A model generated the notes under the pieces. That model searched no databases. It saw nothing but the letters and a program-made list of their open reading frames with translations, and had not been told where the DNA came from. From an uncultured Gemmatimonadota bacterium (GTDB taxonomy: Bacteria; Gemmatimonadota; Gemmatimonadetes; Gemmatimonadales; Gemmatimonadaceae): 34,187 nucleotides of DNA. The position numbers and the translations under genes were made by a program. Every line of letters starts with the position of its first letter. Within the stretch, counting starts at the first letter, position 1. Shown piece by piece: positions 4,808-32,005 of this stretch. The DNA is taken from assembly GCA_903900795.1 (NCBI GenBank), contig CAIUOO010000048.1, forward strand, positions 1 through 34,187. Reading direction: 5' to 3'.

Positions 4808-7800
4808 ATGCGCTCGCAGTTTTTGACCGTACGGCGGCGACAGGGCTGGCCGCCAGTACCCCACGACCGGAGTTCGGTGCCCAGGCAGCTCCAGACATGG
4901 GCGCTACCGGCATGGCCAACGGCACGGCCCATGGCCTGGTCCATGGCCTGGCCGGTGGCGTTGCTCACCGCCATCTTCCTGATCGCGCGTCCCCTCGCGG
5001 CGCAGCAGGTCGCCCCTCGGCCCACGCTAGTGCCTCCAGGAGCTCGCCTGGCGGCTGATTCGTTGCGCCTCAGAGTCCCCTACAGCCTCGGTCCGTTCGG
5101 GGTCGCTACGGCCTTTCGCCCCGATCCGGCCCGGGTGGCCGAGCGCGCCGTGGCCATCGCCCGGCGGCTCCACGAGGAGCGGATCGTAGCCCGTTGGGGA
5201 CAAACCGTCGTTCGCGGGCTCGTTTCGCCGCGTGTCGCCGCCGGCGAGGCCCGGTCCGACAGTGGTCCGACCCCGGGAGCCCTGGTGCCGCTTGCCCCGC
5301 AACGCCGCCTGGGGGCCGATGCCGCCACCCAGCTCACCACCGACCTCCTCGGTGACATCGGGGACCTCGGCATCGCCCTCCAGTCGCGCCTCGAGTCGAA
5401 GGTGCAGCGCAGTCGCAACGAGCGATGTACCACCGCGCAGCTCACCATTCTTGGCAACAACTGCTTCGGCATCTTTCAGCCGGCCTTCGACTTTCAGTTC
5501 AACGTGCGTACGGGTGGCGTCGTCGCCGATCGCGTGTACGTCAATGTCGATTACGACTCGCAACGCGAGTTCGATGCGTCGAACAACATTTCGGTGCGCT
5601 ATCAGGGCAAGTCGGACGAAGCCCTGCAGACGCTCGAAGTCGGCAACGTCACCTTCCAGCCGCCGGCCTCGCGCTTCCTCACGTCAGGCATCCCGTCGGG
5701 CAACTACGGCATTCAGGCCACCGGACAGATCGGCCCCATGCGCTTCACGTCCATCGTGGCGCAGCAGAAGGGCAATGTCTCCAAGGACAACGTCTTCACC
5801 ATCGGCGAACGCTCGCAGCAGCAGGTCGATCGCGTCATCGAAGACATTCAGGTGGAGACGCGCCGCTTCTTCTTCACCATCGATCCGCGCTCGCTGGGCG
5901 GATATCCGAACATCGATCTATTGAATCGGCAGCAGATGCAGCAGTTGGCGGCGTCGCTCCCCGACTCGGTGCGACCGGCGCGACTGTACGTGTATCGCCA
6001 GCTCATCGGCGCCGCGAACCAGAATCCGCGCGGTCCGCAGTTCTCGGTGCGTGGCGCGCGCAATCCGTCGCGGCAGATCTATGAAGTATTGCGTGAGAAC
6101 GTCGACTACTACGTCGATCCCTCGCAGCTCTGGATCGCGCTGGTGCGTCCGCTCAATCCCAACAATGAGCGGCTCGCCGTCGCGTACGAAGTGAACGTGA
6201 ACGGCACGCCGGGGCGGAATGTGAACACCGGTGGTACGCCCGACATCGAGTTCACCGCCGATCCGCAGTACGCGAATCTGCTCTGGGAGCCCGAACTGCA
6301 GCCCACCAACAGCGCGTACTTCCTGCGCGAGCTCAAGTCGGTGTATCGCTTGGGCGGCGAAGATCTGCAACGCGAGTCGATCACGCTCAAGCTCGTGACC
6401 GGCACCTCGGGCGATCAGGAGAAGCCGATCAACCCGTCACGCGGCGAAACCTATCTGCAGCTCTTCGGCCTGTCGCAAGCCACCAACTCGGCGGCGTTCG
6501 ACGTAGAGAATCGCGTGTGGCCGCGCCCCAACGATCCCAACCAACTGGCGTCGTTCGCCGGCGGCAACGGTCAGCAGAAGCTGATCCGCGACTACTTCGT
6601 GTTCTATCCGTCGCTGCAGCCGTTCGCGCGCGGTGGACTCGCGCAGCCACTCGCAAATCCGGCCAACGACACGCTGTACCGGTATCCCAACGAGTACCTG
6701 TATTCCGCGCAGCGGCCGCAGGCCATCTATCGGATGGTCGCCAGCTATCGCTCGGAGGGCGGTGGCAGCACGCAGTCCATCAAGCTCAGCACGATTCAGG
6801 TGCGCCCCAATTCCGAACGCGTGTCGCTCGACGGCCGGCTGCTCACGAAGACCACGGACTACGAGATCGACTATGATCTCGGCATGATCACCTTCAATCG
6901 TCCGGATACGCTGTTCGCCACGCCGAGGCAGGTGTCGGTACGCTACGAGGAGAACCCGCTGTTCGTCGCGGCACCCACCACCATTCTCGGGTTTGCGTCA
7001 CAGTTCCCGCTCGAGAACGGCCAGCTGGCATTCACCGCGATCTCGCAGAGCCAGCGCTCGGGATACAACCGACCGCCGCTCGGGTTCGAGCCGGTCGGCT
7101 CGCTGGTCGCCGGCGTGACCGGCAATCTCGCGTGGGATGCGCCGCTGCTTACCCGCGCGCTGGGCAAGCTGCCGTTCAAGCAGAGCGCCACGCCGTCGCG
7201 CGTGAGCCTGCAGGGCGAGTTCGCGATGAGCAAGCCGCAGCCGAATGCCGCGGGGCAGGCGTACCTCGAATCGTTCGAGGGCGAGGGTGCGATTCCAGGT
7301 ATCTCGCTCTCCGAAGGCTCTTGGTACTACAGCTCGCGTCCGTCGCTGGGCAACACGCTGGCGGCCCGCTTCGGCAGCAGCACCTTCTCGGTGAATCGCG
7401 CGGCGACGATGGCCTTCCAGAACAACGGTGTCGACGTCGGTGGCAACTTCATTCAGTTCAATATCCAACAGATCGATCCCTCGGTGCGAATTGTGGGCAG
7501 CGGTGTGCAGACGTCTGAGCAGCTGCTGTGGATGACGCTGTATCCGCTCAAGACCGGCGGCATTTTTGACTTCGAACCCGGCACGGCGAAGCGCCGGTTT
7601 GCCTGGACGTTGGGTGACAACAGTCTCGTGGGTAATACGCCAACGGGACGCCGTTGGCGCTCGCTCCGCACGGTCATCAATCCCAGTGGTGCCGATCTCT
7701 CGCGCACCGAAAACATCGAGTTCTTCGCGCTGGTGCAATCCGAACAGGCGAAGGTGAAGCGCAATCCCACGCTCGTGTTCGACTTCGGTGAAATCAGCGA

Positions 7801-10800
7801 GAACAGCGTGACGTTCGCACCGGAAACGCTCACCGTGAACGCGCCGGTTCGCGCGGGGCTTCCTGCCGACTCCACCTATCGCGGCAAGCGGTTGGTGGGT
7901 TTTGATCGCTTCGATTCCGAGCGCGATCCGTTCTCGCGGGCATTCAACGCGGCCGAGAACGACAAAGGCTTGCCTGGCGACGTGGCCGATACGCTCGTGG
8001 TCGTGAATCGCACCGGTCCGTCGCCGGTCATCTCTACGCAGAACAAGGTCGCCATCTGCACGCAAGCCGTGCAGATCGTGCAGGTGCTCGGCGACAGCCG
8101 TGTCAATTGTGGCGCCCGCAACAACCGGCTCGACGAAGAGGATATCGATCTCGACGGCCAGCTGAACATGCCCAACGCCGCCATCGATCAGGAGCAGTAC
8201 AAGCGTTTTGTGGTCGACCTCGCAGATACGCGCAACTGGACACGCGTGGGCAAGTGCTATCAGCAGCAGGACTCGACGGTGAACGGCGTGGTCAGCGATT
8301 CACTCTGCTGGGTGCAGGTGCGCCTCAATTGGCGCGCGCCGGCCGAAGAGCAGAACAGTCCGAACGACCGGCGCGTGCGCGCGTTGCGGCTCACGATGGT
8401 GTCGAGTGCTGAGTCGGCCGACGACGCGTTCGTGCGCGTGGCGCTCACGAGACTCAAGCTGGTCGGCGCGCCGTGGCTGAAGCGTAGCGTCGAGCCCCTG
8501 TCGGGGATGGCCGGCGACTCAGCCGGGGTGATTGGCGGCTACGTGATCGCCAGTGTGATTGGCACGCTCGACTCCACGTCGTTGGTGCCGTATACGCCGC
8601 CGCCGGGTGTGGTCGAGGCGCCGGAGAACCGGCAAACCGGTTACGAGAACAACCGGTTGCAGGTGAATGAACGCGCGCTTCGGCTGCAGGCCGGCATCCC
8701 GGGTCGTCAGTTCCGGCCGTTTGATCGGGCCGAAGCATTCTTTCGCTTCCCGGAAGGCACCAAATCCTTCATGGGCTACAAGACGCTGCGCTTGTGGATG
8801 CGCGGCCGTGGCAACGGCTGGGGACAGAACGGTGAGCTGAACGGTTACGTAAAAATCGGCCGCGACGAGAACAATTTCTACATGTACCGCACACCGGTGA
8901 ATGCCGGTGTCGGGCTCAGTGCGTGGGAGCCCGAGGTGCGGGTCGACTTGCAGAAATTCCAGATCCTGCGTGCGCAGCTCGAGAACAATTTCCTCACCGG
9001 CTCCAGCGACTCGGTGTCCTGTTCCGGCGCCGACCTCGAGCTGATTCGTCGCTCGGGGTTGCCGCGTGGCGTGGCGGTGCGGCGCTTCGCCGTGTGTCAG
9101 GACGGCTACATCGTGTACAGCGCCGACCCAACGGTCACGCCACCCAATCTGGCCGGCGTGCAGGAAATGGCGGTCGGACTCGTGCGTGTGGACAGTGTGC
9201 CGCGTGGCGGCACAGGCCTCATGAGCAACGATACGCTCGAACTCTGGGTCAACGACATTCGCCTCACCGATGTCGTCGATGATATCGGCTTCGCCGGCGA
9301 GCTGGGACTGGCGGTGAATGCCGGAGACCTCGCCGACTTCCGCATGAACGTGAGTCGTCGCGATCCCAACTTCCGTCAGCTCAACGAGACCCCGTCGTTC
9401 CTCACCACCAGCGGCGTGAGTGTGGGCACCACGTTGCATCTCGAGCGGATGTTGCCGCAACGACTCGGCATCGTCATGCCGTTCAGCGTGGACTATGTGG
9501 GCTCCGGCGTCGATCAGCTGTTCATCAATCGCACCGACGTGCGCGCCAGTGGCATTCAGGGGCTGCGCAATCCCAGCGATCGACGTGTGAATTATGCGCT
9601 CGCCCTGCGACGGGCCACGCCGATGGGCGGTGGGTGGTACGCACCGCTGGTGAACGGGCTCGCCCTGAACGGCACGTGGTCGAATGCCGCGTCGCAGAGC
9701 GCTTTCCAGGAAGCCACCAACAGCGCGTATGCGCTCGGGGCGTCGCTCAATTTGTCCGGCGACCGTCGCGAGTCGAAGTTGCCGCGGGTGGTCGATGCGC
9801 TGTTCGGTGTCTTGCCGCGCGGGCTGCGTGAGAGCGAGGCGATTCGAAATTTCCGTGGTCAGCGATTCCGGTGGTCCCCCACGGCGTTCCGGTTGTCGAG
9901 CTCCCTGGCGCGCAACGCGAACTCGAGCACGTCGTTTACGAAGGCCGCCGAGTCGCCGACGGACACCGGTCAGGTGGCGAACGGACTCACGCACTTCTGG
10001 CAGAATAGCAGCACCCTCGAGTTCCGTCCGTCGGTCGGCCTGACGGCCTCCATGAACGCGCGGCAGCTGCTGGACCTGCGCGATTATCGCACCACGTCGA
10101 TCCTGCCGGACAGCACCGATCGTGGACAGGCCGCGGCCGCGGAGCGACTACAGTTGCTGGGAACGACCGTGGGGCTCGAGCGCGAACGGTCGCTCACCTC
10201 GGCCGTGCTCTTCCAACCCACGCTCGCTGTGTGGCTACGGCCGCGTCTCGACTTCAACTCGACGTTCAACCTGAACAAGGATCCGAACGCGCGCGCGCTG
10301 CTGCGGGAGCAAGACTCCGCCGGGGCGTATCGCCTGCCCAAGCGACTGGGGGCGGCGCAGACGTTCAGTACGGGCACCACGTTCGATTTCGGTCGCTTGA
10401 TCACGTCGCGCACTAAGGAGAAGACGCTGAGCAATCGGCTGGGACGGATGTTTGCCCCGATCGATGTGTCGTGGCAGCAGAGTCTCACCTCGAACTACGA
10501 CAACACCGCCTTCATTCCCGGTTGGGGCTACCAGCTGGGGCTGGGTGGTCTTCAGTCGTTTCGCGGACTCGACTCACGGCTGGCCACCACGGCCGGACGG
10601 CTGCGTCGCGCCACCGCCACGGGTGCGTTGAACTTGCCCTTCTCGCTCACCGTGCAGTCGCGCTTCGAGAACGGCACGACCGAAACGTGGACGCGTCGCA
10701 CGTTCGATGGATTCCAGGCCGTGATTACGAGTACGCAGTTGGTGAAGCCCGACTACTCCGTGCGCTGGAGCTGGCGGCCCGTGCGTCTGCGGAAAGTGAT

Positions 10801-11380
10801 CACGATGCTGAACGTGAACGGGCGCTATCTCGTGAGTGAACAGGAAACGATGATCCCCAACGAAACCGGCGGCTTGGCCGATCGCAGCCGGACCACGGCC
10901 CGCAGTCAGCCGCTGTCGGGCGCGATCACCTGGGCCTTTCTGGGCGGACTCACCACCAACGCGTCGCTCGATCGCACGCACCGCGAAGACAGCCGCCCGG
11001 GTTCGCTCACGAACCTCGACTCGCGGCGCGTCTCGTTCGACGTGGCAAGGCGCTTCAAGGTGCCGAAACGGTTCACCACCCGGAACGCCACCGTGCGCAC
11101 GTCGCTGTCGTATCAGAGCGAGCAGTCGCAGTCGATCGTGCAGGGGTCCTCGTCCACCACCGCGGCTGGTGACGTGGTCACGATCCCCCCCTCGGTGCTC
11201 ACGGATAACGGCCGTCGCGCGTTCAACTTCAACGCCGATACCGATCTCTCGGAGCTGCTCACCTTCAGTCTCACGGGATCACGGGTCGTCAACTTCGACC
11301 GCAACTACAACCGACAGACGTCGAACCTGATCTTCAGCGCGGTGCTGCAGCTCCGCTTCTTCGCAGGTGATCTGAAGTAG
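4808..11380 (+). CDS. sprA: SprA-like giant outer-membrane/cell-surface protein
   Basis: A 2190-residue protein resembling SprA, the outer-membrane translocon of the type IX secretion system in Bacteroidota. Family-like segments include YLESFEGEGAIPGISLSEGSW (compare the DDFEGS motif), a region with TVINPSGADLSRTENIEFF, and LWVNDIRLTDVVDDIGFAG (compare the repeated NELRLTDF motif). The C-terminus ends in amphipathic strands (NLIFSAVLQLRFFAGDLK) as expected for a barrel. A signal peptide is present, but hydrophobic residues only begin near residue 47, with cleavage near residue 65. Internal ATGs at 4931 or 4943 are therefore plausible alternative starts. The divergent lptF gene starts only 61 bp away. 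No other type IX components are visible. Confidence 0.85.
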   Translation: MRSQFLTVRRRQGWPPVPHDRSSVPRQLQTWALPAWPTARPMAWSMAWPVALLTAIFLIARPLAAQQVAPRPTLVPPGARLAADSLRLRVPYSLGPFGVATAFRPDPARVAERAVAIARRLHEERIVARWGQTVVRGLVSPRVAAGEARSDSGPTPGALVPLAPQRRLGADAATQLTTDLLGDIGDLGIALQSRLESKVQRSRNERCTTAQLTILGNNCFGIFQPAFDFQFNVRTGGVVADRVYVNVDYDSQREFDASNNISVRYQGKSDEALQTLEVGNVTFQPPASRFLTSGIPSGNYGIQATGQIGPMRFTSIVAQQKGNVSKDNVFTIGERSQQQVDRVIEDIQVETRRFFFTIDPRSLGGYPNIDLLNRQQMQQLAASLPDSVRPARLYVYRQLIGAANQNPRGPQFSVRGARNPSRQIYEVLRENVDYYVDPSQLWIALVRPLNPNNERLAVAYEVNVNGTPGRNVNTGGTPDIEFTADPQYANLLWEPELQPTNSAYFLRELKSVYRLGGEDLQRESITLKLVTGTSGDQEKPINPSRGETYLQLFGLSQATNSAAFDVENRVWPRPNDPNQLASFAGGNGQQKLIRDYFVFYPSLQPFARGGLAQPLANPANDTLYRYPNEYLYSAQRPQAIYRMVASYRSEGGGSTQSIKLSTIQVRPNSERVSLDGRLLTKTTDYEIDYDLGMITFNRPDTLFATPRQVSVRYEENPLFVAAPTTILGFASQFPLENGQLAFTAISQSQRSGYNRPPLGFEPVGSLVAGVTGNLAWDAPLLTRALGKLPFKQSATPSRVSLQGEFAMSKPQPNAAGQAYLESFEGEGAIPGISLSEGSWYYSSRPSLGNTLAARFGSSTFSVNRAATMAFQNNGVDVGGNFIQFNIQQIDPSVRIVGSGVQTSEQLLWMTLYPLKTGGIFDFEPGTAKRRFAWTLGDNSLVGNTPTGRRWRSLRTVINPSGADLSRTENIEFFALVQSEQAKVKRNPTLVFDFGEISENSVTFAPETLTVNAPVRAGLPADSTYRGKRLVGFDRFDSERDPFSRAFNAAENDKGLPGDVADTLVVVNRTGPSPVISTQNKVAICTQAVQIVQVLGDSRVNCGARNNRLDEEDIDLDGQLNMPNAAIDQEQYKRFVVDLADTRNWTRVGKCYQQQDSTVNGVVSDSLCWVQVRLNWRAPAEEQNSPNDRRVRALRLTMVSSAESADDAFVRVALTRLKLVGAPWLKRSVEPLSGMAGDSAGVIGGYVIASVIGTLDSTSLVPYTPPPGVVEAPENRQTGYENNRLQVNERALRLQAGIPGRQFRPFDRAEAFFRFPEGTKSFMGYKTLRLWMRGRGNGWGQNGELNGYVKIGRDENNFYMYRTPVNAGVGLSAWEPEVRVDLQKFQILRAQLENNFLTGSSDSVSCSGADLELIRRSGLPRGVAVRRFAVCQDGYIVYSADPTVTPPNLAGVQEMAVGLVRVDSVPRGGTGLMSNDTLELWVNDIRLTDVVDDIGFAGELGLAVNAGDLADFRMNVSRRDPNFRQLNETPSFLTTSGVSVGTTLHLERMLPQRLGIVMPFSVDYVGSGVDQLFINRTDVRASGIQGLRNPSDRRVNYALALRRATPMGGGWYAPLVNGLALNGTWSNAASQSAFQEATNSAYALGASLNLSGDRRESKLPRVVDALFGVLPRGLRESEAIRNFRGQRFRWSPTAFRLSSSLARNANSSTSFTKAAESPTDTGQVANGLTHFWQNSSTLEFRPSVGLTASMNARQLLDLRDYRTTSILPDSTDRGQAAAAERLQLLGTTVGLERERSLTSAVLFQPTLAVWLRPRLDFNSTFNLNKDPNARALLREQDSAGAYRLPKRLGAAQTFSTGTTFDFGRLITSRTKEKTLSNRLGRMFAPIDVSWQQSLTSNYDNTAFIPGWGYQLGLGGLQSFRGLDSRLATTAGRLRRATATGALNLPFSLTVQSRFENGTTETWTRRTFDGFQAVITSTQLVKPDYSVRWSWRPVRLRKVITMLNVNGRYLVSEQETMIPNETGGLADRSRTTARSQPLSGAITWAFLGGLTTNASLDRTHREDSRPGSLTNLDSRRVSFDVARRFKVPKRFTTRNATVRTSLSYQSEQSQSIVQGSSSTTAAGDVVTIPPSVLTDNGRRAFNFNADTDLSELLTFSLTGSRVVNFDRNYNRQTSNLIFSAVLQLRFFAGDLK

Positions 11381-20881: not shown

Positions 20882-21108
20882 TATTGACTCCGGTTCGCTG
20901 AAGGATCGAATACATTCGTGGCCTCAGCGATTCCTTGTGCAACAGCCGTGCCGACGCATCGCCCATGGTGCAATCGGTGCCGGGAAGGAGCGCCACAACG
21001 AGCCGGGTTCGCTACACGCCACCGAGCGCGAGTATCCCGAGCGCGAGTAAGTTGAACGAGCACAGTGGCGTGTCTCTTTCCGCCGTCCTCCCCCGCTACC
21101 CTGCCGCC

Positions 21109-22293
21109 ATGCTCATCGACTCGCATCATACGGACGACTCCGTCACCCTTCGTCTGTCGGGGCGTCTGGACGGCTCGACGGCGCCGCTTTTTGCACAGGC
21201 GCTGGCACAGGCGCTGGAGTCGGCGCTGCAACGGGGCGGCATGACAACGCTGGTGCTCGACCTTGACGCCTGCACGTACGTATCGAGCGCTGGACTTCGG
21301 GAAGTGCTGCGGGCGCAGAAGCTGCTTGCCGAGCGCCAGGGCCGCGTGCAGGTCACCAACGTGAGCCGCGACGTGCTGCACGTGCTCGAGCTCACCGGCC
21401 TCGCGAGCATGTTGACGGTGGTGCCCAAGGTGCGGGAGATCAGCATTGACGGGCGTGAGCTGATGTCGGCGGGTGTGTGCGGGGAGTGCTATCGGTTGGA
21501 CAGCGAGACCATCGTCAAGCTGTATCACGAGGGCGTGGCTCCCGAGATCGCCGCGCAGGAGAAGGCGTTTGCCAAGGCGGCCTTCGTGTTGGGGGTGCCA
21601 ACGGCCATCTCGTACGACGTCGTCTCGTGCGGCACGCGCACCGGCATCGTGTACGAAATGCTCGACGCGCAGCTGTTCAGCACGGTCATTCGGAATGATC
21701 TGGACAACATCGACCGCCATGCGGCAACGCTGGCGCAGGTCGCCAAAACCATCCACGCCACGCCGGCGGATCCGGCCGTGTTCCCCGATCTCAAGGCGCG
21801 ATTCCGCGGCTACTTCGACGCCATGGATTTCTTCTTGTCCGCCGAGGAGATTGGGTTTCTGCACGAGCGGCTGGCTGATGTTCCCGACGCCGATACCTGC
21901 GTGCACTTCGACATCCACTCCAGCAATATCATGATCCGCGACGGCGAGCCGGTCATCATTGACATGGGTGACTTCTCGCGCGGCAGCTATCTGTTCGATG
22001 TCGGCCTGCTGTGTACGATCTACGGCGTTCCCGAGCTGGGGATCAGCGAACTGGCCACCAAGATTCCCGCCGACGCGGGCGTTGCCCTCTGGGAGCGCTT
22101 TTTGGCGCATTACTTCGCCGACAAGCCGGCCCACGAGTTGGCGTACTTCAATCGCAACCGCGATTTCTTTGCGTCGCTGCGCCTGATTTACACCATCACG
22201 TTCCTGCCGAAAATGCGGGACGCGTGCGTGGCGATGATCCAAGACACGCTCATGCCGCGCATGCGGGCGGCGGCGCTGCTCGCGCCCTCCTGA
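21109..22293 (+). CDS. STAS domain fused to an aminoglycoside-phosphotransferase-like kinase domain
   Basis: A 394-residue two-domain protein. Residues 1-105 form a STAS domain of the anti-sigma-factor-antagonist type, with LVLDLDACTYVSSAGLREVL; Ser59/Ser60 lie where the phosphorylated serine of SpoIIAA-type proteins sits. Residues about 115-390 form a kinase-fold phosphotransferase: a putative nucleotide-binding strand with YRLDSETIVKLYHEG, the catalytic-loop HFDIHSSN (266-273, H-x-D-x(4)-N) and the metal-binding IDMGD (285). This half resembles the TIGR02172-type phosphotransferase family. ATG at 21109 is chosen because it directly precedes the STAS strand; upstream codons lack coding character. 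The natural substrate is unknown; autophosphorylation of the linked STAS serine is an inference. The cyclase gene follows 22 bp later. Confidence 0.82.
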   Translation: MLIDSHHTDDSVTLRLSGRLDGSTAPLFAQALAQALESALQRGGMTTLVLDLDACTYVSSAGLREVLRAQKLLAERQGRVQVTNVSRDVLHVLELTGLASMLTVVPKVREISIDGRELMSAGVCGECYRLDSETIVKLYHEGVAPEIAAQEKAFAKAAFVLGVPTAISYDVVSCGTRTGIVYEMLDAQLFSTVIRNDLDNIDRHAATLAQVAKTIHATPADPAVFPDLKARFRGYFDAMDFFLSAEEIGFLHERLADVPDADTCVHFDIHSSNIMIRDGEPVIIDMGDFSRGSYLFDVGLLCTIYGVPELGISELATKIPADAGVALWERFLAHYFADKPAHELAYFNRNRDFFASLRLIYTITFLPKMRDACVAMIQDTLMPRMRAAALLAPS

Positions 22294-23667: not shown

Positions 23668-23904
23668 CTACCGCTCATCTCCGGCCACGGGCGCACGATC
23701 CTTCACCTTCTTCAGCACGCGCCGGAGCGCCGTCTTCGAACCGCGCGCGGCGCGCGCCTCCAGATACTCGCTGGTCAACAGCGCGGACATCTTCTCGGCG
23801 AGCGAGGTCGCGATCAGTTGGTTGATCGAAATGCCCTCCTGCTCGGCGAGGGCGCGCGCCTGCGCGTGCAGAGACTCGGACAAGCGGAGACTGATCGTGC
23901 TCAT
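23668..23904 (-). CDS. Ribbon-helix-helix (HicB/CopG-like) antitoxin of a PIN toxin
   Basis: A 78-residue protein. The N-terminus STISLRLSESLHAQARALAE followed by EGISINQLIATSLAEKM is a ribbon-helix-helix DNA-binding fold like those in HicB and CopG-type antitoxins. A basic tail (ALRRVLKKVKDR) follows, probably the part that contacts the toxin. The ATG at 23904 overlaps the PIN gene stop by four bases (ATGA) and is preceded by a strong AGGAGG ribosome site, so translation of the antitoxin can be high. It likely represses its own operon at the palindrome by the PIN start codon. Confidence 0.85.
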   Translation of the reverse strand: MSTISLRLSESLHAQARALAEQEGISINQLIATSLAEKMSALLTSEYLEARAARGSKTALRRVLKKVKDRAPVAGDER

Positions 23905-24329
23905 GCGTCCTCCTGAAGGCGGGCCAGAAATTGGCCGGGGGTGAGCGTCTGGATGCCGAACTGCTCGACACCCGTGAAATCGCGCGTGTTGAACGTGACG
24001 ATGAACGGGCACTGCGCCTCGACCGCCACTTCGAGCACCATGTCATCGTTCGCGTCGCGCAGGAACGGACGCCAGAGATAGAAGATCTTCCGATGATGCG
24101 CCTGCGCACACACGAAATCGATCACCGCATCGACGTCGGCGTGCGTCAGGCCAAGCTCCCGCGCCTGGCGTCGGGCGACGGCTTCGTACTCCAGCACGAG
24201 CGGCACGGAGATACTGATCTCGAACGCGTCCTCGGCCAGCAGTTCTAGCAACGCGAACGTCGCGCCTCGCCGCGAGCGAAGACCGGCGATCAGGACGTTC
24301 GTGTCGAGGATGACGTGTGGCTTCGCCAT
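23901..24329 (-). CDS. PIN-domain toxin (COG1569-type ribonuclease)
   Basis: A 142-residue PIN-domain protein, probably an RNA-cleaving toxin. Acidic active-site candidates are D9 in VILDTNVLIAG, E47/E49 in LVLEYEA, D92-D96 in RDANDDMVLEVA, and D117 in FNTRDF. The layout matches the putative toxin family with a downstream ribbon-helix-helix partner. Start at 24329 is chosen because the DTNV strand must be near the N-terminus; the longer frame to 24542 is antisense to the cyclase fragment. No ribosome site precedes the ATG, whereas a 20-bp palindrome abuts it, so initiation may be on a very short leader. The pair sits between two copies of a repeated cassette, suggesting it arrived as a unit. 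Confidence 0.87.
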   Translation of the reverse strand: MAKPHVILDTNVLIAGLRSRRGATFALLELLAEDAFEISISVPLVLEYEAVARRQARELGLTHADVDAVIDFVCAQAHHRKIFYLWRPFLRDANDDMVLEVAVEAQCPFIVTFNTRDFTGVEQFGIQTLTPGQFLARLQEDA

Positions 24330-24368
24330 GGTATCATATACGATACCACATAGCTTTCCGATCGGCAA
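24329..24368 (-). promoter_or_regulatory. Operator palindrome and possible promoter of the PIN/RHH operon
   Basis: A perfect inverted repeat, TGGTATC (24329-24335) and GATACCA (24342-24348), touches the PIN start codon. On the minus strand TTGCCG (24363-24368) and TATCGT (24340-24345) are 17 bases apart and could be -35 and -10 elements, in which case the palindrome covers the -10 and start site. This is the usual arrangement for self-repression by a ribbon-helix-helix antitoxin. The palindrome is seen directly; the promoter is a weak match. Confidence 0.55.
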
Positions 24369-24435
24369 CGCGGGCGACGCGCCTCGGCGGTCCGCGGGCC
24401 TCGCCCGGGTTACCTCCGGCGCGTCAGCCAGTGAA

Positions 24436-24663
24436 GCGGCGGCCACGCGCTGGCTGATCGGGCAGGGCATCCGCGTGATGGGGGCCGACGCGTGGGGATG
24501 GGACCGGCCGTTCTGGGCCACGCGAGAGGAATTCGCCCGCACGGGCGAGGCCGCGTGTCTCTGGGAGGCCCACCGGGTCGGGATGGACCTCGAGTATTGT
24601 CACATCGAGAAGCTGGCCAACTTGCGCGCGGGGTGGAGCCGTGTGGTCGCGATCTTCCCGTAA
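24436..24663 (+). pseudogene. Truncated second copy of the cyclase 3' end
   Basis: This 228-bp stretch repeats the last third of the cyclase gene (22781-23071) at very high identity, including the stop codon. The first two thirds, with the HGTH-x-D metal site, are missing, so it cannot be an active enzyme. It lacks 63 bases of copy 1 (an in-frame loss of 21 codons, from LPAPFGF to RGSA), with GCGCG at both joints. Most of the few substitutions are silent. The upstream end meets the promoter side of the toxin-antitoxin module. An open frame from 24301 reads through but starts in the PIN operator and has no gene-like N-terminus. Confidence 0.8.
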
Positions 24664-24936: not shown

Positions 24937-25222
24937 GCATCTCGCTTGGTAGAAAGGATGTGTTCAGCGGGACGCCGCGGACTACGCTACCGGAGCGGCT
25001 CCCGAACACCGCGGCAACGTCGCACGTGAGCGCCGTCATGGTAAGAGCGGAACGCCGCACGCCTCATCGGCGTCATCCGTCCTCCGACCATCAGCAGGAT
25101 GCGTTCCGGTGGTCCCCGGGTGGCCGATCCCGCGCACCCTGTTAGGCCGCGGCCCGTCACATTACCGTTCCCCTTTCTCAACGGTAACGTCGCCGCCTCT
25201 CGTCCCCTCCTTCGTGACCCAC

Positions 25223-25564
25223 GTGTTAACTTTCACCCAACGGCGGCAAGACGGCGTCGGCATCATGGCCGTGGCGGGACGCGTTGATCCCACCACTGTA
25301 GCGGAGTTCGAAGCCGGCCTCCAGGCGCTGCTGCCCGACGTCGGCTACAAAGTGGTGCTCGATCTGACCAACGTGGCGTTCGTGAGTAGCCTCGGCCTGC
25401 GTGTGCTCATGACGACGCTCGTCCTCGTGCGCGCCAAGCAGGGGGCGCTCGTGATCTGTGGACTCAACGACGACCTCACCACGCTGTTCCGCATGTCGGG
25501 ATTCCTGGGATTGTTCGACGTGACCGCCACCGAAGCCGACGCGCTCGCGACCCTCGCCGGCTAA
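25223..25564 (+). CDS. Single-domain STAS protein (anti-sigma-factor-antagonist type)
   Basis: A 113-residue protein that is a complete STAS domain: GVGIMAVAGRVDPTTVAEFE, VVLDLTNVAFVSSLGLRVLM (Ser55/Ser56 at the usual phospho-serine site) and a C-terminal FRMSGFLGLFDVTATEADAL helix-strand. In partner-switching systems such proteins bind an anti-sigma kinase when unphosphorylated. No RsbW-type kinase or SpoIIE-type phosphatase gene is adjacent. A GTG at 25223 is chosen as start because it places the first STAS strand at the N-terminus as in the family; GTG at 25214 is an alternative. It lies 68 bp before a larger STAS fusion gene, so the two are probably co-transcribed. Confidence 0.8.
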   Translation: MLTFTQRRQDGVGIMAVAGRVDPTTVAEFEAGLQALLPDVGYKVVLDLTNVAFVSSLGLRVLMTTLVLVRAKQGALVICGLNDDLTTLFRMSGFLGLFDVTATEADALATLAG

Positions 25565-25632: not shown

Positions 25633-27780
25633 ATGGCCCTCGAGATTTCCGTCGACGCCGACCTGCTGATCCTCTCCGGGCGCCTCGACGCGGCCGGCGC
25701 GATCGCCCTCGATGCCTGGAAGGCCGAGGCGGCCACTGTGCCCGCCCTTTGGGATCTGCGGGCGCTGGCCTTCATCTCGAGCTTGGGCATCCGGAGTCTG
25801 ATTACGCTCGACCGTCGCGTGCGAGCGGCCGGGCAGCGCGTGCAGGTGGTGTACGTGGAGGAATCGTTCGTGGCCGACGTGTTGTCCTCGGCGGGCCTCA
25901 CCTCCCAGTGGCCCATGCACACCGATCTCGCGTCTGCACGCGCCATGCAGCAGGGAGGCGCGCCAACGGCGCCCGCGGCCGCGTGGACTGGGGCCGCGGG
26001 TGATCGCTATCAGCGCACGCCGGCCAAGGGGCTGGGACGCGCGTCGCGCTTTCAGACGGCTCCCGACGCCCCCCCAATGCTGGTGCGCTTCGACGAACTG
26101 GGGCTGGCGTTCGGTGTGGGCGGATTCGGCTCCGACTCCGCCGATGAACCGGCGTCGGCGCTCGTCGCCACGGGGCAAACCGTGCTGGTGCACACCGCCG
26201 ACGGACTGACCGACCTGCTCGACACCGTGACGCCCGCCACCACGTTCGCCTGCATCGCCGAGGCGGTGCGGCTGGAACTCGACGACGCGGAACGGTGGGA
26301 CGCCCAGGGCGACGTCACGTGGGGGCACCTGCGCCCCGACCTACAGGCGCAGGCAGCCACCGCCGGCAACGGGCCGTGGGCCGCCGGCGCACTGGCCATG
26401 TGGGACGACCGGCCATGCGTGCTCCTGATGTTCGCACCCATCGGCGAGGCGCTGCGCGTGGTCGCGCTGCGCGCCGTGGCCGACGCGAGCACCGCGCCGC
26501 AAGCGGGCGGCGCGATCACGCTGGCCGAGGCCGCGGCCGCACTGGCCCGCGGCGATGAGGCGGAGATCTGCTGGCCCAATGACGACACCACGCTGCGCGC
26601 TGTCCGCGTGTGGTTTGCCCCAACGCCCACCATTGCAGACGGCGGCGCGCACCGGCTGGTCATCGACGCGGCCGAGCCGGTGTCGGACGCGTGGGAGCGG
26701 ATCATCCGCTCCACCTTTACCGACGAGGCCCGCGTGAAGTTGCGCCGCCTAACCGGCGGGTTCATGGCGTCCACCTTCGCTACCGACACGCACGACCGGC
26801 ACGGCCGGCGTACGCTGCCCAGCGTGCTGAAAATCAGCCCGCGCGCGGTGACGGCACGCGAGGAGGCGGCGTATCGCCAGTACGTGCGGCCGTTCATTCT
26901 GAATAACGCCACCGTGCTCATGGCGCAGGCCGTGCACGGCGAGTACGCGGGGCTGCGTTACAACTTTTTGGGCATCACCGGCGCCGAGTCGCAGCTGCAA
27001 CCGCTGGAGTCACTGTACGTCGGCGACACGCCGGCGGAGGCCACGACGGCCATCCGGCAGACGCTCACGAACGTGCTGCGGCCGTGGTATGGACAGGCCG
27101 TGGTGGCGCCGGTGCATCCGTTCGCCGACCACGATCCGCGGGTGTTGTTCACCGACTTGCCTGCCGTGGCGCAGGAGGTGCTGGGGATCGATCTCAATGC
27201 CCCGCGTATCGAGTGTCCGCCGCTCGGGCGCAGCGTCCTCAACCCGTACCATTTTCTGCAGCACCGGTGGGACGCGCTGCGCGGGTATACCGCATCGTGG
27301 GCCACGTCGATCACGCACGGCGACCTCAATCTCAACAACGTGCTGGTCGACGAGCGGCGCAACATCTACGTGATCGACTTTTCCGAGACGCGGGTGCGCA
27401 ACGTGGCGGCCGACTTCGCGCGTCTCGAGGCGATCTGCATGATGGAGCACACGCGGCTCGACCACGACGACGATCCGCGCGCGGTGCTCACGCAGGTGGC
27501 CCGTTCGCTCGAGGGGGCCATCTGGACGCCGCCTGCCGCCGACGCGTCGGCGGAGCCTATGCTGGCGCGCGCGGCGGCGCTGGCGATCGACGTGCGTGGG
27601 CTGGCGGCGCAGCGTGTGGCCGACCCGGCGCATGAGGCTGCATATCTGCTGCCGCTGCTGGAGTGGACCACGCCGATCGTCGCCTTCCGGCAAGTCGCCC
27701 GTGTGCGGAAGCAGGTCGCGGTGTGGTCGAGCGGGTTGATCCTCGAGCGTCTGTTGCGCGCACTCGATTTGCCCGAGTGA
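25633..27780 (+). CDS. STAS / unknown middle domain / phosphotransferase-like fusion protein
   Basis: A 715-residue protein in three parts. Residues 1-100 are a STAS domain with LWDLRALAFISSLGIRSLI (Ser49/Ser50). Residues about 145-330 form a globular middle part (FDELGLAFGVGGFGSD, then TTFACIAEAVRLEL) that I cannot assign. Residues about 345-715 are kinase-fold: LRRLTGGFMASTFATDT resembles a glycine-rich loop, VLKIS may hold the ATP lysine, the catalytic loop is HGDLNLNN (562-569), and the metal site is IDFSET (D582). This last part resembles the phosphotransferase-like ternary-complex-associated domain (TCAD9) of predicted conflict systems, though that match is from memory. It is a second, larger STAS-kinase fusion flanking the peptide cassettes. 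Confidence 0.78.
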   Translation: MALEISVDADLLILSGRLDAAGAIALDAWKAEAATVPALWDLRALAFISSLGIRSLITLDRRVRAAGQRVQVVYVEESFVADVLSSAGLTSQWPMHTDLASARAMQQGGAPTAPAAAWTGAAGDRYQRTPAKGLGRASRFQTAPDAPPMLVRFDELGLAFGVGGFGSDSADEPASALVATGQTVLVHTADGLTDLLDTVTPATTFACIAEAVRLELDDAERWDAQGDVTWGHLRPDLQAQAATAGNGPWAAGALAMWDDRPCVLLMFAPIGEALRVVALRAVADASTAPQAGGAITLAEAAAALARGDEAEICWPNDDTTLRAVRVWFAPTPTIADGGAHRLVIDAAEPVSDAWERIIRSTFTDEARVKLRRLTGGFMASTFATDTHDRHGRRTLPSVLKISPRAVTAREEAAYRQYVRPFILNNATVLMAQAVHGEYAGLRYNFLGITGAESQLQPLESLYVGDTPAEATTAIRQTLTNVLRPWYGQAVVAPVHPFADHDPRVLFTDLPAVAQEVLGIDLNAPRIECPPLGRSVLNPYHFLQHRWDALRGYTASWATSITHGDLNLNNVLVDERRNIYVIDFSETRVRNVAADFARLEAICMMEHTRLDHDDDPRAVLTQVARSLEGAIWTPPAADASAEPMLARAAALAIDVRGLAAQRVADPAHEAAYLLPLLEWTTPIVAFRQVARVRKQVAVWSSGLILERLLRALDLPE

Positions 27781-27821: not shown

Positions 27822-30800
27822 TACCCCGCGAGCATCGTGAGCACGTCGCGCGGTGACATGGCACGCCCCACCGCGACCAGCGCGTCCAACAGCTCGGGCC
27901 CGATGCTTGTCCGCGCCGCGTCCACGTTGCCGGCCATCTCAGGCCCCATCGGATGCGCCAGGATTTCCCCGCTGCGTTCTGACAGTGCATCGGCGGCGGC
28001 GGCGATCGTCGCCGCACGTTCGGCGCGGCCATCGGCCGCGTCGGCGGCGGCGAGTCCAGTGAGCGCCAACCCGATACCTCGCGCGCTGCCGACTTCGTCG
28101 TACACGCGCAGCGACCGACGGAACGCTTCGCGCGCCACCGCGAGGCGCGACGCGCCAAGGGCCGTCCATCCGATTTCACTGTGCATGCGTGCCAGCTCCG
28201 GCCGGTCACCAACCCGCGTGAATGACGCGATCGCTTGCCCGTAGAGTTCGAACGCGCGCCCCACGTCGCCGCGCGCCGCGGTCATCTGCGCGAGAAAGCT
28301 GAGCGCGAGGCCACCGCCTTCGTCATCGCCAATTCGCACCTGCATTTTCCGCGCGTCTGTAACCAGCGCGAAGCCCGCGTCGAGCGCGCCGCACACGAAC
28401 AGCTGCAGCCCTTTCATCGACATCGACAATGACAGCAGGAAGTCGTGTTGCGCCCGCTCTCCGCACGCGATGGCCTCGTCCAGCGCCGCGCCCGACTCCT
28501 CCATGTGCCCCAGGCTCATGTGCCCGTAGCCGGCACACATGCACGCCTCGGCCAACAGCGCGTCGTCGGCCAGGGCGCGCGCGTCGGCCAGGGCGCGCGT
28601 CAACTCGTCAGTGCCGCGTTCCATCTCGCCGGCGTTCATCGACATCATGCCACTCGCCAGCAGCGACCGCGCTCGCCCTTGGCTGGGCGCACGATCTCTC
28701 GCCATCGGCAGCAGCACGTCGATCGACGCGCGCGCCGTGACATGCTGCCCGCCGATATGCCAGAACCAATACAGCGCACCGCACAGCAGGAGCCCGTGCT
28801 CCACGTCATCGGTCGCGCCAGAGTCGAACGACGATCGGTCGTGCTGCGCCTGCCCAGTGAACCAGTGGATCGCCGCCATCAGGTTGGCGTTGTCACGTCG
28901 GGCACGCTGCATGGCCGCGCGTTGTGTCGTACCGGTGATCCCCGCCTGCACGTCGTTTGCGAACGCACGGAATGCCATGGCGTGCGCGCGATGCACCGAC
29001 TCGACCTCGCCGTGCTCCGCTAGTGACGCGGCCGCGAACTCCCGGATGGGTTCCAGCAGGTCGTAGCGCTCGCCCGCGTCCGTCATCTGCACGAGGCCAT
29101 TGTCCACCAGCGCACGCAGTTCGTCGCGTGCGCGCCAGCGGTCGGGCTCAGCGTAGCACACCGCTTCCACTTCCGTGACGGTCCAGCCATCGGCGAATAC
29201 CGATAGACGCCGCAACAGCTGCTGTTCGGCGGCGTTCAGCAGCGAATCGCTCCACACGATGGACGCACGCAGGGTGCGCTGGCGTGCGGTACTCTGGCCT
29301 GCGGCTTCATCGCGCTCGATCGAGGTCGGCCGATCGATCGCGTCGTCCAGTTGCTGTCGCAGCGCGGCCGGCTCGAACAGGCGAATGCGCGCCGCGGCCA
29401 GTTCGAGTGCCAGCGGCAATCCATCAAGTCGGACGCAGATCGCCGCGACGTCGGCCCTGTTGGCTGTTGTGAGCGCGAACGCGGGTTGCACCATGTCGGC
29501 GCGCTGCACGAAGAGCTCGACGGCGGCAGAACGCGGCAACTCGTCCACCGGCGTCGCGTGCGCATCGGGTAATCTGAGCGGGGGCAACGTGAGCTCGTGC
29601 TCAACGCTGATCGCGAGCGGCGCACGACTGGTCGTGATCACGCAGACGCCGGTACAACGCGACACCAGCTCCGCGATGTCGACGGCCGATTCGCGGGCGT
29701 GCCCGATATCGTCGAGCAGCAAGAGCACACGACCATGTCCGAGTACTGTGGCGATGGCAGCAACGGCCGTACGGCCGTGGGCCTCGGCGATGCCGAGCGC
29801 GTTACCGACGGTGGGCATCACGTCGGCGAAGCGGGTGACGGCGGTGAGCGACACGTAGGCCGACCCGTCGGGAAAATCGTTTTGTAGCCGTGTGAACAGT
29901 TCGATCGCGAAGCGGGTCTTGCCGGTGCCACCGGGGCCGGTCACCGTCAGCACGCGCGTGCCGGCGCGCAGACGCTCCATCGCGTCGGTCAGCGACGCGT
30001 CACGGCCCAGCAGGGCGTTGGCGGGCGCCGGCGGTGGTCGCGAGATCGTCGGCGCCGTTGGTGCGGCGCTGGCGGCGGGATGACTGCCGTTGGCCCGCAT
30101 AAGGGCGCGCCGCCATTCCTCCACCGACGGGAATCGATCCGCCGGCGACTTCGCCAACGCACGTGCCACGACGCGTTCCACGGCGTCAGCCACCGGCCGC
30201 GACACGATCGCTCGCCGCGTCGCGAGTTTGGGGACGGGCGCGATGGCGTGACGCGCCATGATCGCGACTGTGGTTGGGCCGGTGAACGGCGGCGTCCCGG
30301 CGAGCATCTCGTACACCACGCAGGCCAAGGCGTACAGGTCGCTGCGGGCGTCCAGCACGTCACCGCGTGCCTGCTCGGGGCTCATGTAGCGCGGTGTTCC
30401 CAATGCCGTGCCGGCCACCGCGAGCTTCGCCTCACCCAACGCGCCGACCGCCGGCGCGATGCCGAAATCGGCTACGATCGCGTGCCCGTTCTCGATGAGA
30501 ATATTCTCCGGCGTGATGTGGCGATGCAGAACGCCGCGCCCGTGGGCGTAGCTCAGGGCGTTCGCGATGTCGTCGGCAAATTGGAGCGCCTCGTGGAGCG
30601 GAAGCGATCCGCCGCGCGCTAGCCGGTCGCGTAAACGTTCGCCCTCGACGAACGGCATAACCGAGAAGAGAAAGCCCGCGCTTTCGCCGCAATCGTACAG
30701 CGGAAGGATGTTGGGGTGGCGCAGTCCCACGGTGGCGGTGGTCTCGCGGAGGAACCAATCGTGCCCCAGCGAGGCCGCCAGGGCTGGGTGTAGCACCTTC

Positions 30801-30925
30801 ACCGCGACCGTACGCCGGTGTCGGAGGTCCTCGGCGCGGTACACGGTACCCATGCCGCCGGCGCCGATCTCCCGCTCAAGGCGATAGCGGTCGGCCAGCG
30901 CGGAGGAGAGTCGCGGATCAATCAT
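27821..30925 (-). CDS. Ser/Thr protein kinase-like / STAND ATPase / TPR fusion regulator
   Basis: A 1034-residue protein. Residues 13-275 are a Hanks-type kinase domain with glycine loop GAGGMG (21-26), K43 in VAVK, E61 and DFG (153-155); the catalytic loop reads HRHITPEN (134-141) instead of HRDxKPEN, so the catalytic Asp is His and the Lys is Thr. Residues about 305-560 are a STAND/NB-ARC-like ATPase: Walker A GPGGTGKT (330-337), Walker B LLLLDD (401-406), TTSRAPL, and GLPLALELAAAR. A winged-helix-like part (LLRRLSVFADGWTVTEVEA) and TPR-like helices (about 690-990) follow. No C-terminal DNA-binding domain was seen. ATG at 30925 is chosen because the kinase domain begins there; an open frame far upstream is antisense to the thioredoxin gene. 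It is probably cytoplasmic since no membrane segment is visible. Confidence 0.88.
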   Translation of the reverse strand: MIDPRLSSALADRYRLEREIGAGGMGTVYRAEDLRHRRTVAVKVLHPALAASLGHDWFLRETTATVGLRHPNILPLYDCGESAGFLFSVMPFVEGERLRDRLARGGSLPLHEALQFADDIANALSYAHGRGVLHRHITPENILIENGHAIVADFGIAPAVGALGEAKLAVAGTALGTPRYMSPEQARGDVLDARSDLYALACVVYEMLAGTPPFTGPTTVAIMARHAIAPVPKLATRRAIVSRPVADAVERVVARALAKSPADRFPSVEEWRRALMRANGSHPAASAAPTAPTISRPPPAPANALLGRDASLTDAMERLRAGTRVLTVTGPGGTGKTRFAIELFTRLQNDFPDGSAYVSLTAVTRFADVMPTVGNALGIAEAHGRTAVAAIATVLGHGRVLLLLDDIGHARESAVDIAELVSRCTGVCVITTSRAPLAISVEHELTLPPLRLPDAHATPVDELPRSAAVELFVQRADMVQPAFALTTANRADVAAICVRLDGLPLALELAAARIRLFEPAALRQQLDDAIDRPTSIERDEAAGQSTARQRTLRASIVWSDSLLNAAEQQLLRRLSVFADGWTVTEVEAVCYAEPDRWRARDELRALVDNGLVQMTDAGERYDLLEPIREFAAASLAEHGEVESVHRAHAMAFRAFANDVQAGITGTTQRAAMQRARRDNANLMAAIHWFTGQAQHDRSSFDSGATDDVEHGLLLCGALYWFWHIGGQHVTARASIDVLLPMARDRAPSQGRARSLLASGMMSMNAGEMERGTDELTRALADARALADDALLAEACMCAGYGHMSLGHMEESGAALDEAIACGERAQHDFLLSLSMSMKGLQLFVCGALDAGFALVTDARKMQVRIGDDEGGGLALSFLAQMTAARGDVGRAFELYGQAIASFTRVGDRPELARMHSEIGWTALGASRLAVAREAFRRSLRVYDEVGSARGIGLALTGLAAADAADGRAERAATIAAAADALSERSGEILAHPMGPEMAGNVDAARTSIGPELLDALVAVGRAMSPRDVLTMLAG

Positions 30926-31050: not shown

Positions 31051-31212
31051 ATGAAGAAGAAGCACAACACGGCCGTCCCAGATTTTTCCCGCAAGCGCCC
31101 GATTCCCGGCACGCCGTCCACGGCGCCGGGTGAGAAGTCCTCACAGCCGAGCCCGCGGCAGCCGCAGAAGCCGCCCACGACCGCCAAGAATGGTGGGCGT
31201 CGCGGCACCTGA
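31051..31212 (+). CDS. Small basic disordered protein
   Basis: A 53-residue frame starting MKKKHNTAVPDFSRKRPIPG and ending NGGRRGT. It is rich in Lys, Arg, Pro, Ser and Thr, lacks hydrophobic segments and is probably unstructured. GGAG lies 7 bases before the ATG, a good ribosome site. It fills the gap between the divergent kinase-like gene and the thioredoxin-fusion gene and is on the same strand as the latter, 55 bp away. I do not recognise a family; a nucleic-acid-binding role is only suggested by charge. Confidence 0.55.
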   Translation: MKKKHNTAVPDFSRKRPIPGTPSTAPGEKSSQPSPRQPQKPPTTAKNGGRRGT

Positions 31213-31267: not shown

Positions 31268-32005
31268 ATGTCTGTTGCTCTGTTGACTGATGGTGCGTTC
31301 GCCACCGACGTACTCGCCCACCCGGGGCTCGTAGTGGTGGATGTGTGGGCCGAATGGTGCACGCCTTGCCGAGCCCTGGTCCCGATTTTCAACACTCTCG
31401 CCGAGCGGTACGACGGTCGGGTTCGTGTGGCCAAGCTCGATGCCGATGCGAATCTGGAAACCGTGACCCGCTATGATGTGCGCGCGCTGCCGACGGTCCT
31501 GATCTTTCAGGGCGGGGTTCTGGTGGAGCGCCTCAGTGGAGCCCGATCCCTTGGCTCGTATGTCGACGCCATCGATGCGCATCTGGCCCGCCGCGGCGAG
31601 GCCGTGGTCGCCGTGCCGTCGGTGGAGCGGACCATGGCGCCGCCGGCTACGGCCACAGCTACGACCTCGGGGGAGAGCGACGCCATCCGTGAAGCACGGG
31701 CGCTCCTGTCGCACCATGAGGCGATGCTGGTGTTCAAGCACAGCAACGCCTGCCCCGTGTCCTTCACGGCCAAACGGCAATTTGATCAGTTCACGGTCGC
31801 TAATCCTGATGTGCCCACGCGGCTCGTGGTGATCCAGCAGGAACGCGAGCTGTCCAATGCGCTGGAGACGGTGAGCCGGCTTCGCCATGAGTCGCCGCAG
31901 GCGCTCATCGTGCGGGACGGGCGGGTGCTCTGGGATGCCTCGCACGGAGGGATCACCAAGCCGCGTCTCGAGCAGGCCTTCGTGGCGGTGCGGCCTCCGG
32001 GCTAG
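31268..32005 (+). CDS. Thioredoxin fused to a YtxJ-like monothiol bacilliredoxin domain
   Basis: A 245-residue cytoplasmic redox protein with two domains. Residues 1-110 are a thioredoxin fold with active site WCTPC (C31, C34), VAKLDAD and cis-Pro75 in VRALPT. An Ala/Thr/Pro-rich linker (about 112-138) leads to residues 140-245, which resemble YtxJ (BrxC): LVFKHSNACPVSFTAKRQF with single Cys162, then RELSNALE, RHESPQALIVRDG and WDASHGGIT. YtxJ proteins occur with bacillithiol and reduce protein-bacillithiol mixed disulfides. The fusion suggests electron transfer from the dithiol to the monothiol domain. ATG at 31268 is chosen as it starts just before the thioredoxin fold; upstream in-frame codons overlap the small basic gene. 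Confidence 0.87.
   Translation: MSVALLTDGAFATDVLAHPGLVVVDVWAEWCTPCRALVPIFNTLAERYDGRVRVAKLDADANLETVTRYDVRALPTVLIFQGGVLVERLSGARSLGSYVDAIDAHLARRGEAVVAVPSVERTMAPPATATATTSGESDAIREARALLSHHEAMLVFKHSNACPVSFTAKRQFDQFTVANPDVPTRLVVIQQERELSNALETVSRLRHESPQALIVRDGRVLWDASHGGITKPRLEQAFVAVRPPG

Follow-up and report, generated by a model that had tools for sequence, protein, structure and literature searches.

STAND proteins of the MalT type are described as combining a repeat sensor, a switch between ADP and ATP forms and a terminal effector, and as assembling once activated (PMC4381067; statements from cited papers, here and below, are drawn from selected sections of them). In PknK of Mycobacterium tuberculosis, presented as a STAND-family Ser/Thr kinase, residues 1–300 were used as the kinase domain, and the protein autophosphorylates and phosphorylates PrrA and MtrA (PMC9045387). 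Bacterial Ser/Thr pseudokinases, in which at least one of the β3 Lys, the HRD Asp and the DFG Asp is missing, were sorted by O'Boyle et al. (2025) into the families ActPs1–3, GLW, CP1, DYD and DLHK, and are described there as largely unexplored experimentally (PMC12599244). Kaur et al. (2020) reported kinases with disrupted catalytic sites and, separately, inactive STAND NTPases in NTP-dependent conflict systems (PMC7159879). Bacterial pseudokinases and inactive STAND proteins are already known separately; what is new in the locus described here is a graded series within one family and one genus, running from an intact enzyme through a dead kinase to a dead kinase combined with a dead P-loop.

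The window, a stretch of 34,187 nucleotides from an uncultured Gemmatimonadota bacterium, contains a gene for a kinase–STAND–TPR protein (Table 1). The open frame spans 30991–27821 on the minus strand, and its translation contains GVLHRHITPENILIENGHAIVADFGIA, the glycine loop GAGGMGTVY, the VAVK motif and a Glu within FLRETT. The start codon chosen, ATG 30925, matches that of the orthologue L014, in which an in-frame stop lies shortly upstream of the MID start. Among named records, the best full-length match is the metagenome-assembled genome (MAG) Baikal-G1 (73%), followed by a MAG labelled Gemmatimonas phototrophica, which matches over the C-terminal part (74%); these named relatives suggest a Gemmatimonas-type genome.

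Table 1 Coordinates of the kinase–STAND–TPR gene and its features in the window
Feature	Position	Strand	Basis
Kinase–STAND–TPR protein gene, 1034 aa	27821..30925	(-)	Open frame, start ATG 30925
Ser/Thr protein kinase domain (pseudokinase)	30131..30886	(-)	PF00069; AlphaFold2 model with PknA/PknB fold
Catalytic loop HRHITPEN, residues 134–141	30503..30526	(-)	Translation
DFG motif, residues 153–155, retained	30461..30469	(-)	Translation, motif alignment
NB-ARC / STAND nucleotide-binding domain	29624..29980	(-)	PF00931, 30.0 bits (cut-off 23.5)
Walker A (GPGGTGKT), unaltered in this protein	29915..29938	(-)	Translation, orthologue motif table
TPR_12 repeats	28097..28306	(-)	PF13424, 33.6 bits (above cut-off)
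Recombinant tract, approximately residues 1–390, breakpoint approximate	29756..30925	(-)	Sliding dS, AU topology test

The preliminary description of this DNA, made from the single sequence, had proposed a pseudokinase fused to a STAND/TPR protein, and the Pfam matches (Pkinase, 142–146.6 bits; NB-ARC; TPR_12) together with the motif losses support it at the sequence level. The protein has the NB-ARC/AP-ATPase core of a STAND NTPase, with a Walker B motif (LLLLDD) in addition to Walker A, as well as superstructure-forming sensor repeats, the TPR region appearing as successive helices across residues 624–1033 of a low-confidence full-length model. Like PknK, it joins an N-terminal kinase to a STAND module; it differs in that PknK is active, a comparison made by description only (PMC9045387). 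Relative to MalT-type STAND proteins, the place of the terminal effector is occupied here by the kinase.

Translation from ATG 30925 bore out the residue numbering given earlier: the position of the catalytic Asp is occupied by His136 (codon CAC, 30518–30520) and that of the HRDxK Lys by Thr138 (codon ACG, 30512–30514). The glycine loop, the β3 (VAVK) Lys43, Glu61 and DFG are retained, also as had been claimed, and Asn141 is present. A bSTK-type fold (PF00069; model compared with PknA) is thus combined with the absence of one of the three residues used to define bacterial Ser/Thr pseudokinases, His136 standing for the HRD Asp while Lys43 and Asp153 remain. The activation-loop Thr169, which probably corresponds to a phosphorylated Thr of PknB, is also absent from the window protein, although 41 of the 42 kinases compared have it. 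These 42 exclude the rows left out of the structure alignment, which was reduced from 56 chosen sequences to 45 and then to 44. Eleven rows were omitted, namely L040 (stop codon) and ten others including L080, L084 and L086, whose loops read H-L-D or H-C-D and so retain the Asp; L061 was omitted for a stop codon.

The AlphaFold2 model of the kinase domain, built from the 44 sequences, has a mean pLDDT of 86.7, with values below 50 only in the activation segment (residues 158–174) and the tail. Its best matches in the PDB are PknA (4ow8; Z 33.0, rmsd 2.3, 267 aligned residues) and PknB (5u94; Z 32.6, rmsd 2.1, 255 aligned residues). The kinase fold is thus an ordinary one, with a lesion local to the phosphotransfer site. 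Beyond the kinase domain, the full-length model (mean pLDDT 61.3, pTM 0.40) is too uncertain to rely on.

Like the families of O'Boyle et al., the protein has a bSTK fold in which a catalytic motif has been lost, and by their descriptions it is set apart from two of them (PMC12599244). ActPs2 combines a β3 Arg with Asn for Asp, whereas the window protein retains the β3 Lys (Lys43) and the DFG Asp, and membership was rejected; in the GLW family GLW replaces HRD, and a protein reading HRH was likewise rejected as a member (PMC12599244). None of the terms 'gemmatimonad', 'stand', 'nb-arc' and 'tpr' occurs in the main text of that paper. The proteins of Kaur et al. differ in being parts of vWA–MoxR ternary systems (PMC7159879), and neither vWA nor MoxR domains occur among the Pfam matches of 24 further frames of the window that were scanned. 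The protein family was not found in the portions searched of the open-licence literature on pseudokinases with Gemmatimonadetes, STAND NTPase or the HGN motif.

Orthologues were assigned by similarity and full-length architecture. In 179 genomes of the family, the STAND–TPR part was detected at E < 1e-100 in 14, followed by a gap in identity from 48% to ≤39%; among 395 genomes sampled from the phylum, 14 had the gene, two of them new (G226 and G389). Within the genus the gene is held, full or in two pieces, by 7 of 30 genomes (G000, G026, G007, G002, G027, G004 and G012), its absence from the others, and so from most of the genus, being judged at E 1e-60 in the family search. Gemmatimonadota orthologues with an intact HRD (G002, G012, G174, G076, G082, G133, G074, G075 and G138, and the loci L152 and L153 of G389 and G226) have the same architecture and 48–72% identity; they differ in that HRDIKPEN and DFG are intact in all 11, and Walker A (GTGKT) in all nine examined.

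Five proteins, all from the same genus, lack the HRD Asp, which is replaced by His in the window protein and by Asn, Cys, Cys and Asn in its relatives. The window protein reads HRHITPEN, DFG and GTGKT; G026 reads HGNLTPEH, DVG and GTGTS; G007 and G004 read HRCLTPDS, DVG and GTGTS; and G027 reads HGNLTSAH, DVG and GTGTS. All five carry Thr138, and among the 14 orthologues of the motif table these same five are the ones without Asp136, while Lys43, Glu61 and Asp153 are retained in 14/14. Asn141 is lost in four of the five, as is Thr169, which G027 retains, having lost Thr177 in addition; Thr169 is lost in none of the nine HRD members. The Walker A Lys is likewise missing from four of the five (all except the window protein) and from none of the nine HRD orthologues, so that the degenerate P-loop of an inactive STAND is found in G026, G007, G004 and G027, the P-loop of the window protein being intact. 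Alignment with homologues, suggested in the preliminary description as a check, therefore gave a divided answer: Thr138 is constant and the absence of Asp is conserved, but His itself is not (H/N/C/C/N).

The same pattern effectively excludes a base error at this codon, because four other assemblies show the same loss; the base is real, and the protein is no isolated oddity, being one of a non-HRD clade. Among 147 distinct kinase domains spanning the loop, a non-random sample in which most loci were chosen by similarity to the window protein, 142 have the Asp and the sole five without it are the window protein and its closest relatives; Lys43 is present in 147/147. The genome of the window has 13 PF00069 matches including this protein; eight further kinases (L001–L007 and L009) read HRD with Lys, three matches are partial (L010–L012) and one, L013, is presumably ABC1-like. 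Numbers of matches to the window protein are 12, 14, 11, 8 and 21 in the non-HRD genomes G000, G026, G027, G007 and G004, respectively, and at least 25–27 in many genomes of the genus; the kinase repertoire may be smaller in the non-HRD lineage, the assemblies being incomplete. Elsewhere in the Gemmatimonadales, a MAG kinase (L047) reads HRDVSPEN with NLG instead of DFG and is a candidate pseudokinase.

The selective regime bears on whether the protein is simply being lost, with first the kinase activity and later the STAND P-loop given up because the pathway is not needed any more, and with no new function gained. Two-ω codon models were fitted with a purpose-written, unpublished script on a topology fixed by hand, synonymous sites being near-saturated towards the outgroups, and the window sequence was omitted from the STAND model because the recombination point falls inside that region. 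The ω values of the non-HRD clade and of the rest were 0.118 and 0.056 for the kinase (2ΔlnL 20.9), 0.199 and 0.050 for STAND (2ΔlnL 82.0) and 0.141 and 0.070 for TPR (2ΔlnL 20.9), ratios not to be taken as exact, because control fits show rate variation between clades. Those controls used four alternative foreground groups; their ω was below that of the background in 12/12 fits, and 2ΔlnL exceeded 3.84 in 6/12, with a maximum of 50.6 (STAND; clade of G174, G133, G082, G074 and G075). An ω of 1 in the non-HRD clade was rejected for all three regions (2ΔlnL 356, 209 and 374 for kinase, STAND and TPR, respectively), and the close pair G007–G004 gave pairwise dN/dS of 0.21, 0.42 and 0.22 in the same order.

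Purifying selection is relaxed, most of all in STAND, yet the pattern is not that of a dead gene. The rise in ω may be partly lineage-wide, because the degree of relaxation in TPR is similar to that in the kinase, and a two- to fourfold increase, meaning relaxed constraint, also fits slow decay. Decay would further agree with the succession of losses (Asp, Lys, Asn171, DFG Phe and the Walker A Lys), with the replacement of Asp by three different residues and with the absence of the gene from most genomes of the genus. It is nevertheless an unlikely account, since ω lies far under 1, Thr138, Lys43, Glu61 and Asp153 are constant in all five non-HRD proteins, and frames are intact in relatives that are 63–77% identical to the window protein (blastp), internal stops being absent from the four full-length non-HRD genes and from both fragments of the fifth.

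The full-length tree unites the five non-HRD proteins in a single clade (UFBoot 99), whose sister is G002, a member of the same genus with intact motifs; G039 served as outgroup only. The window gene is a mosaic, its first ~390 residues having a separate history through recombination. Against G026, in 100-codon windows, dS is 0.73–0.95 over residues 1–400 and 0.22–0.46 past residue 400, whereas G026 compared with G007 in the same windows gives 0.29–0.76 and no comparable step. Residues 401–1034 group with G026 (support 100), and derivation of the whole gene from the G026 lineage was rejected for residues 1–385 (AU P = 5.8e-5 with nucleotides, 0.013 with amino acids). A 580-contig assembly (3.97 Mb) and a mosaic gene could also point to a chimeric contig or some other sequencing or assembly error; this is very improbable, given the absence of Asp and the presence of Thr138 in four other assemblies, and given that divergence is low again beyond the tract, at the upstream M1 peptidase (dS 0.32) and the small open reading frame (ORF) in between (0.48), so that a chimera would require an inserted 1.2-kb block.

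Within residues 1–390, seven positions are altered alike in G026, G007 and G027, where G002 has the outgroup majority; the window protein shares two of the alterations (Thr138 and Tyr357) and agrees with G002 at four positions (Ile137, Phe154, Lys336 and Thr337). A tree placing the window next to the active-looking G002 is rejected with nucleotides (AU 0.038) but not with amino acids (0.166); one placing it outside G002 is rejected with neither (0.106 and 0.087, respectively), and for nucleotides a tree with the window beside G027 equals the first-branch tree. By these topology tests and the pattern of shared positions, the kinase-and-P-loop module of the window is an early branch of the non-HRD group or of a lineage immediately next to it. 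Recombination of the N-terminal part has therefore given the window protein a less degraded module, with a dead kinase and a live-looking P-loop. The simplest reading is one loss, with decay continuing afterwards in the other members, the alternative being two separate kinase losses, one in the window module and one in the other non-HRD proteins. A stepwise double pseudoenzyme arising within the genus, in which the kinase went first and the STAND P-loop followed in most members, under purifying selection and with the window protein as a middle step through recombination of its N-terminal module, stands at about even odds. The clade-wide loss, the loss of the P-loop Lys in relatives and the recombination lay beyond the reach of the single-sequence view.

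A conserved partner gene beside the orthologues was sought in 14 loci and not found. The pseudokinase gene is adjoined by genes for STAS–APH (20935–22293), STAS (25109–25564) and STAS–TCAD9–APH (25633–27780) proteins, the last of which retains an APH-type loop (HGDLNLNN...DFSE); among the 14 loci, STAS and STAS–TCAD9–APH genes lie beside the orthologue in G026 only, and a gene for a SEC-C protein occupies the neighbouring place in G007, G004 and G027. Within the STAS/APH stretch, HicB-like and PIN-domain genes (23668–24542, minus strand) are probably a toxin–antitoxin pair. Divergent from the pseudokinase gene is a gene whose product joins thioredoxin to a BrxC (monothiol bacilliredoxin) domain (31268–32005, plus strand), present in five genus loci and partly cut at contig or stretch ends. 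A basic ORF of 53 residues (31051–31212, plus strand), 94% identical across five genus loci and without a Pfam match, is a predicted small conserved protein (dS 0.48–0.80 and dN ~0.03 against four genus loci). The small ORF and the thioredoxin–BrxC gene are near the orthologue only within the genus. Further away, a 2190-residue open frame adjoining Mla and Lpt genes (4808–11380, plus strand) has no Pfam match at 1e-5.

Judged from its motifs, the kinase has very probably lost canonical phosphotransfer. It could instead retain a weak or different activity, either residual phosphotransfer by way of another base or some other ATP-dependent reaction, as in SelO and SidJ. Lys43, Glu61 and the DFG Asp are retained, as is Asn141 in the window protein. 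The JH2 domain of JAK kinases, like G026 and G027, has an Asn in place of the catalytic Asp, and it also reads HGN. JAK2 JH2 is described as having low activity without the HRD Asp, its binding of ATP depending on a substitute Lys that lies two residues downstream (PMC4718504), and pseudokinases with new chemistry are known (PMC12599244). That Lys has no counterpart here, a basic residue being absent from this place in all five non-HRD proteins. Lys at 138 is replaced by Thr, and Asn141 and the activation-loop Thr are each lost in four of the five, which makes persisting activity improbable. The preliminary description suggested that the protein may bind ATP without phosphotransfer and act as an allosteric switch. 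Binding of ATP by the kinase part of the window protein is itself doubtful: Lys43, Glu61 and the DFG Asp point to a nucleotide site, but the equivalent of Lys168 is absent and no basic residue follows further along the loop, and the Asn171 equivalent is lost in four relatives.

The preferred reading, to which we assign a probability of roughly 0.6, is that the kinase is a pseudokinase serving as a non-catalytic docking or regulatory N-terminal domain of a STAND–TPR switch, derived from an active ancestor. A selected non-catalytic role for the protein is likely, and the kinase part has probably taken on a new use as a non-catalytic module, because the gene is intact and under selection despite the lost catalytic residues. 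The ancestor would have been an active kinase–STAND–TPR signalling protein, as other members of the family still appear to be. The catalytic Asp and the HRDxK Lys were then lost from the kinase in one lineage of the genus, and in most members the activation-loop Thr as well, with the fold, the Lys43–Glu61 pair and the DFG Asp preserved.

How such a switch might work is drawn by analogy from MalT and is tentative. The TPR part would sense a ligand or protein, the nucleotide-binding domain would shift from the ADP to the ATP form, and the protein would assemble, displaying dead kinase domains that bind a partner in place of phosphorylating it. For the window protein this cycle is likely to operate if the analogy holds, because its P-loop is intact, and the assembly should offer a binding surface and not an enzyme, because the catalytic Asp and the γ-phosphate Lys are gone. 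The nucleotide switch is probably dead too in the four relatives in which the P-loop Lys is replaced, and these proteins may act as scaffolds lacking either nucleotide-driven step.

Within one genus, close relatives carry the protein in intact, half-silenced and fully silenced form. The series allows a direct test of a non-phosphorylating role for the kinase domain in a STAND protein, and it also bears on the order in which two nucleotide-using domains are given up while the protein is kept.
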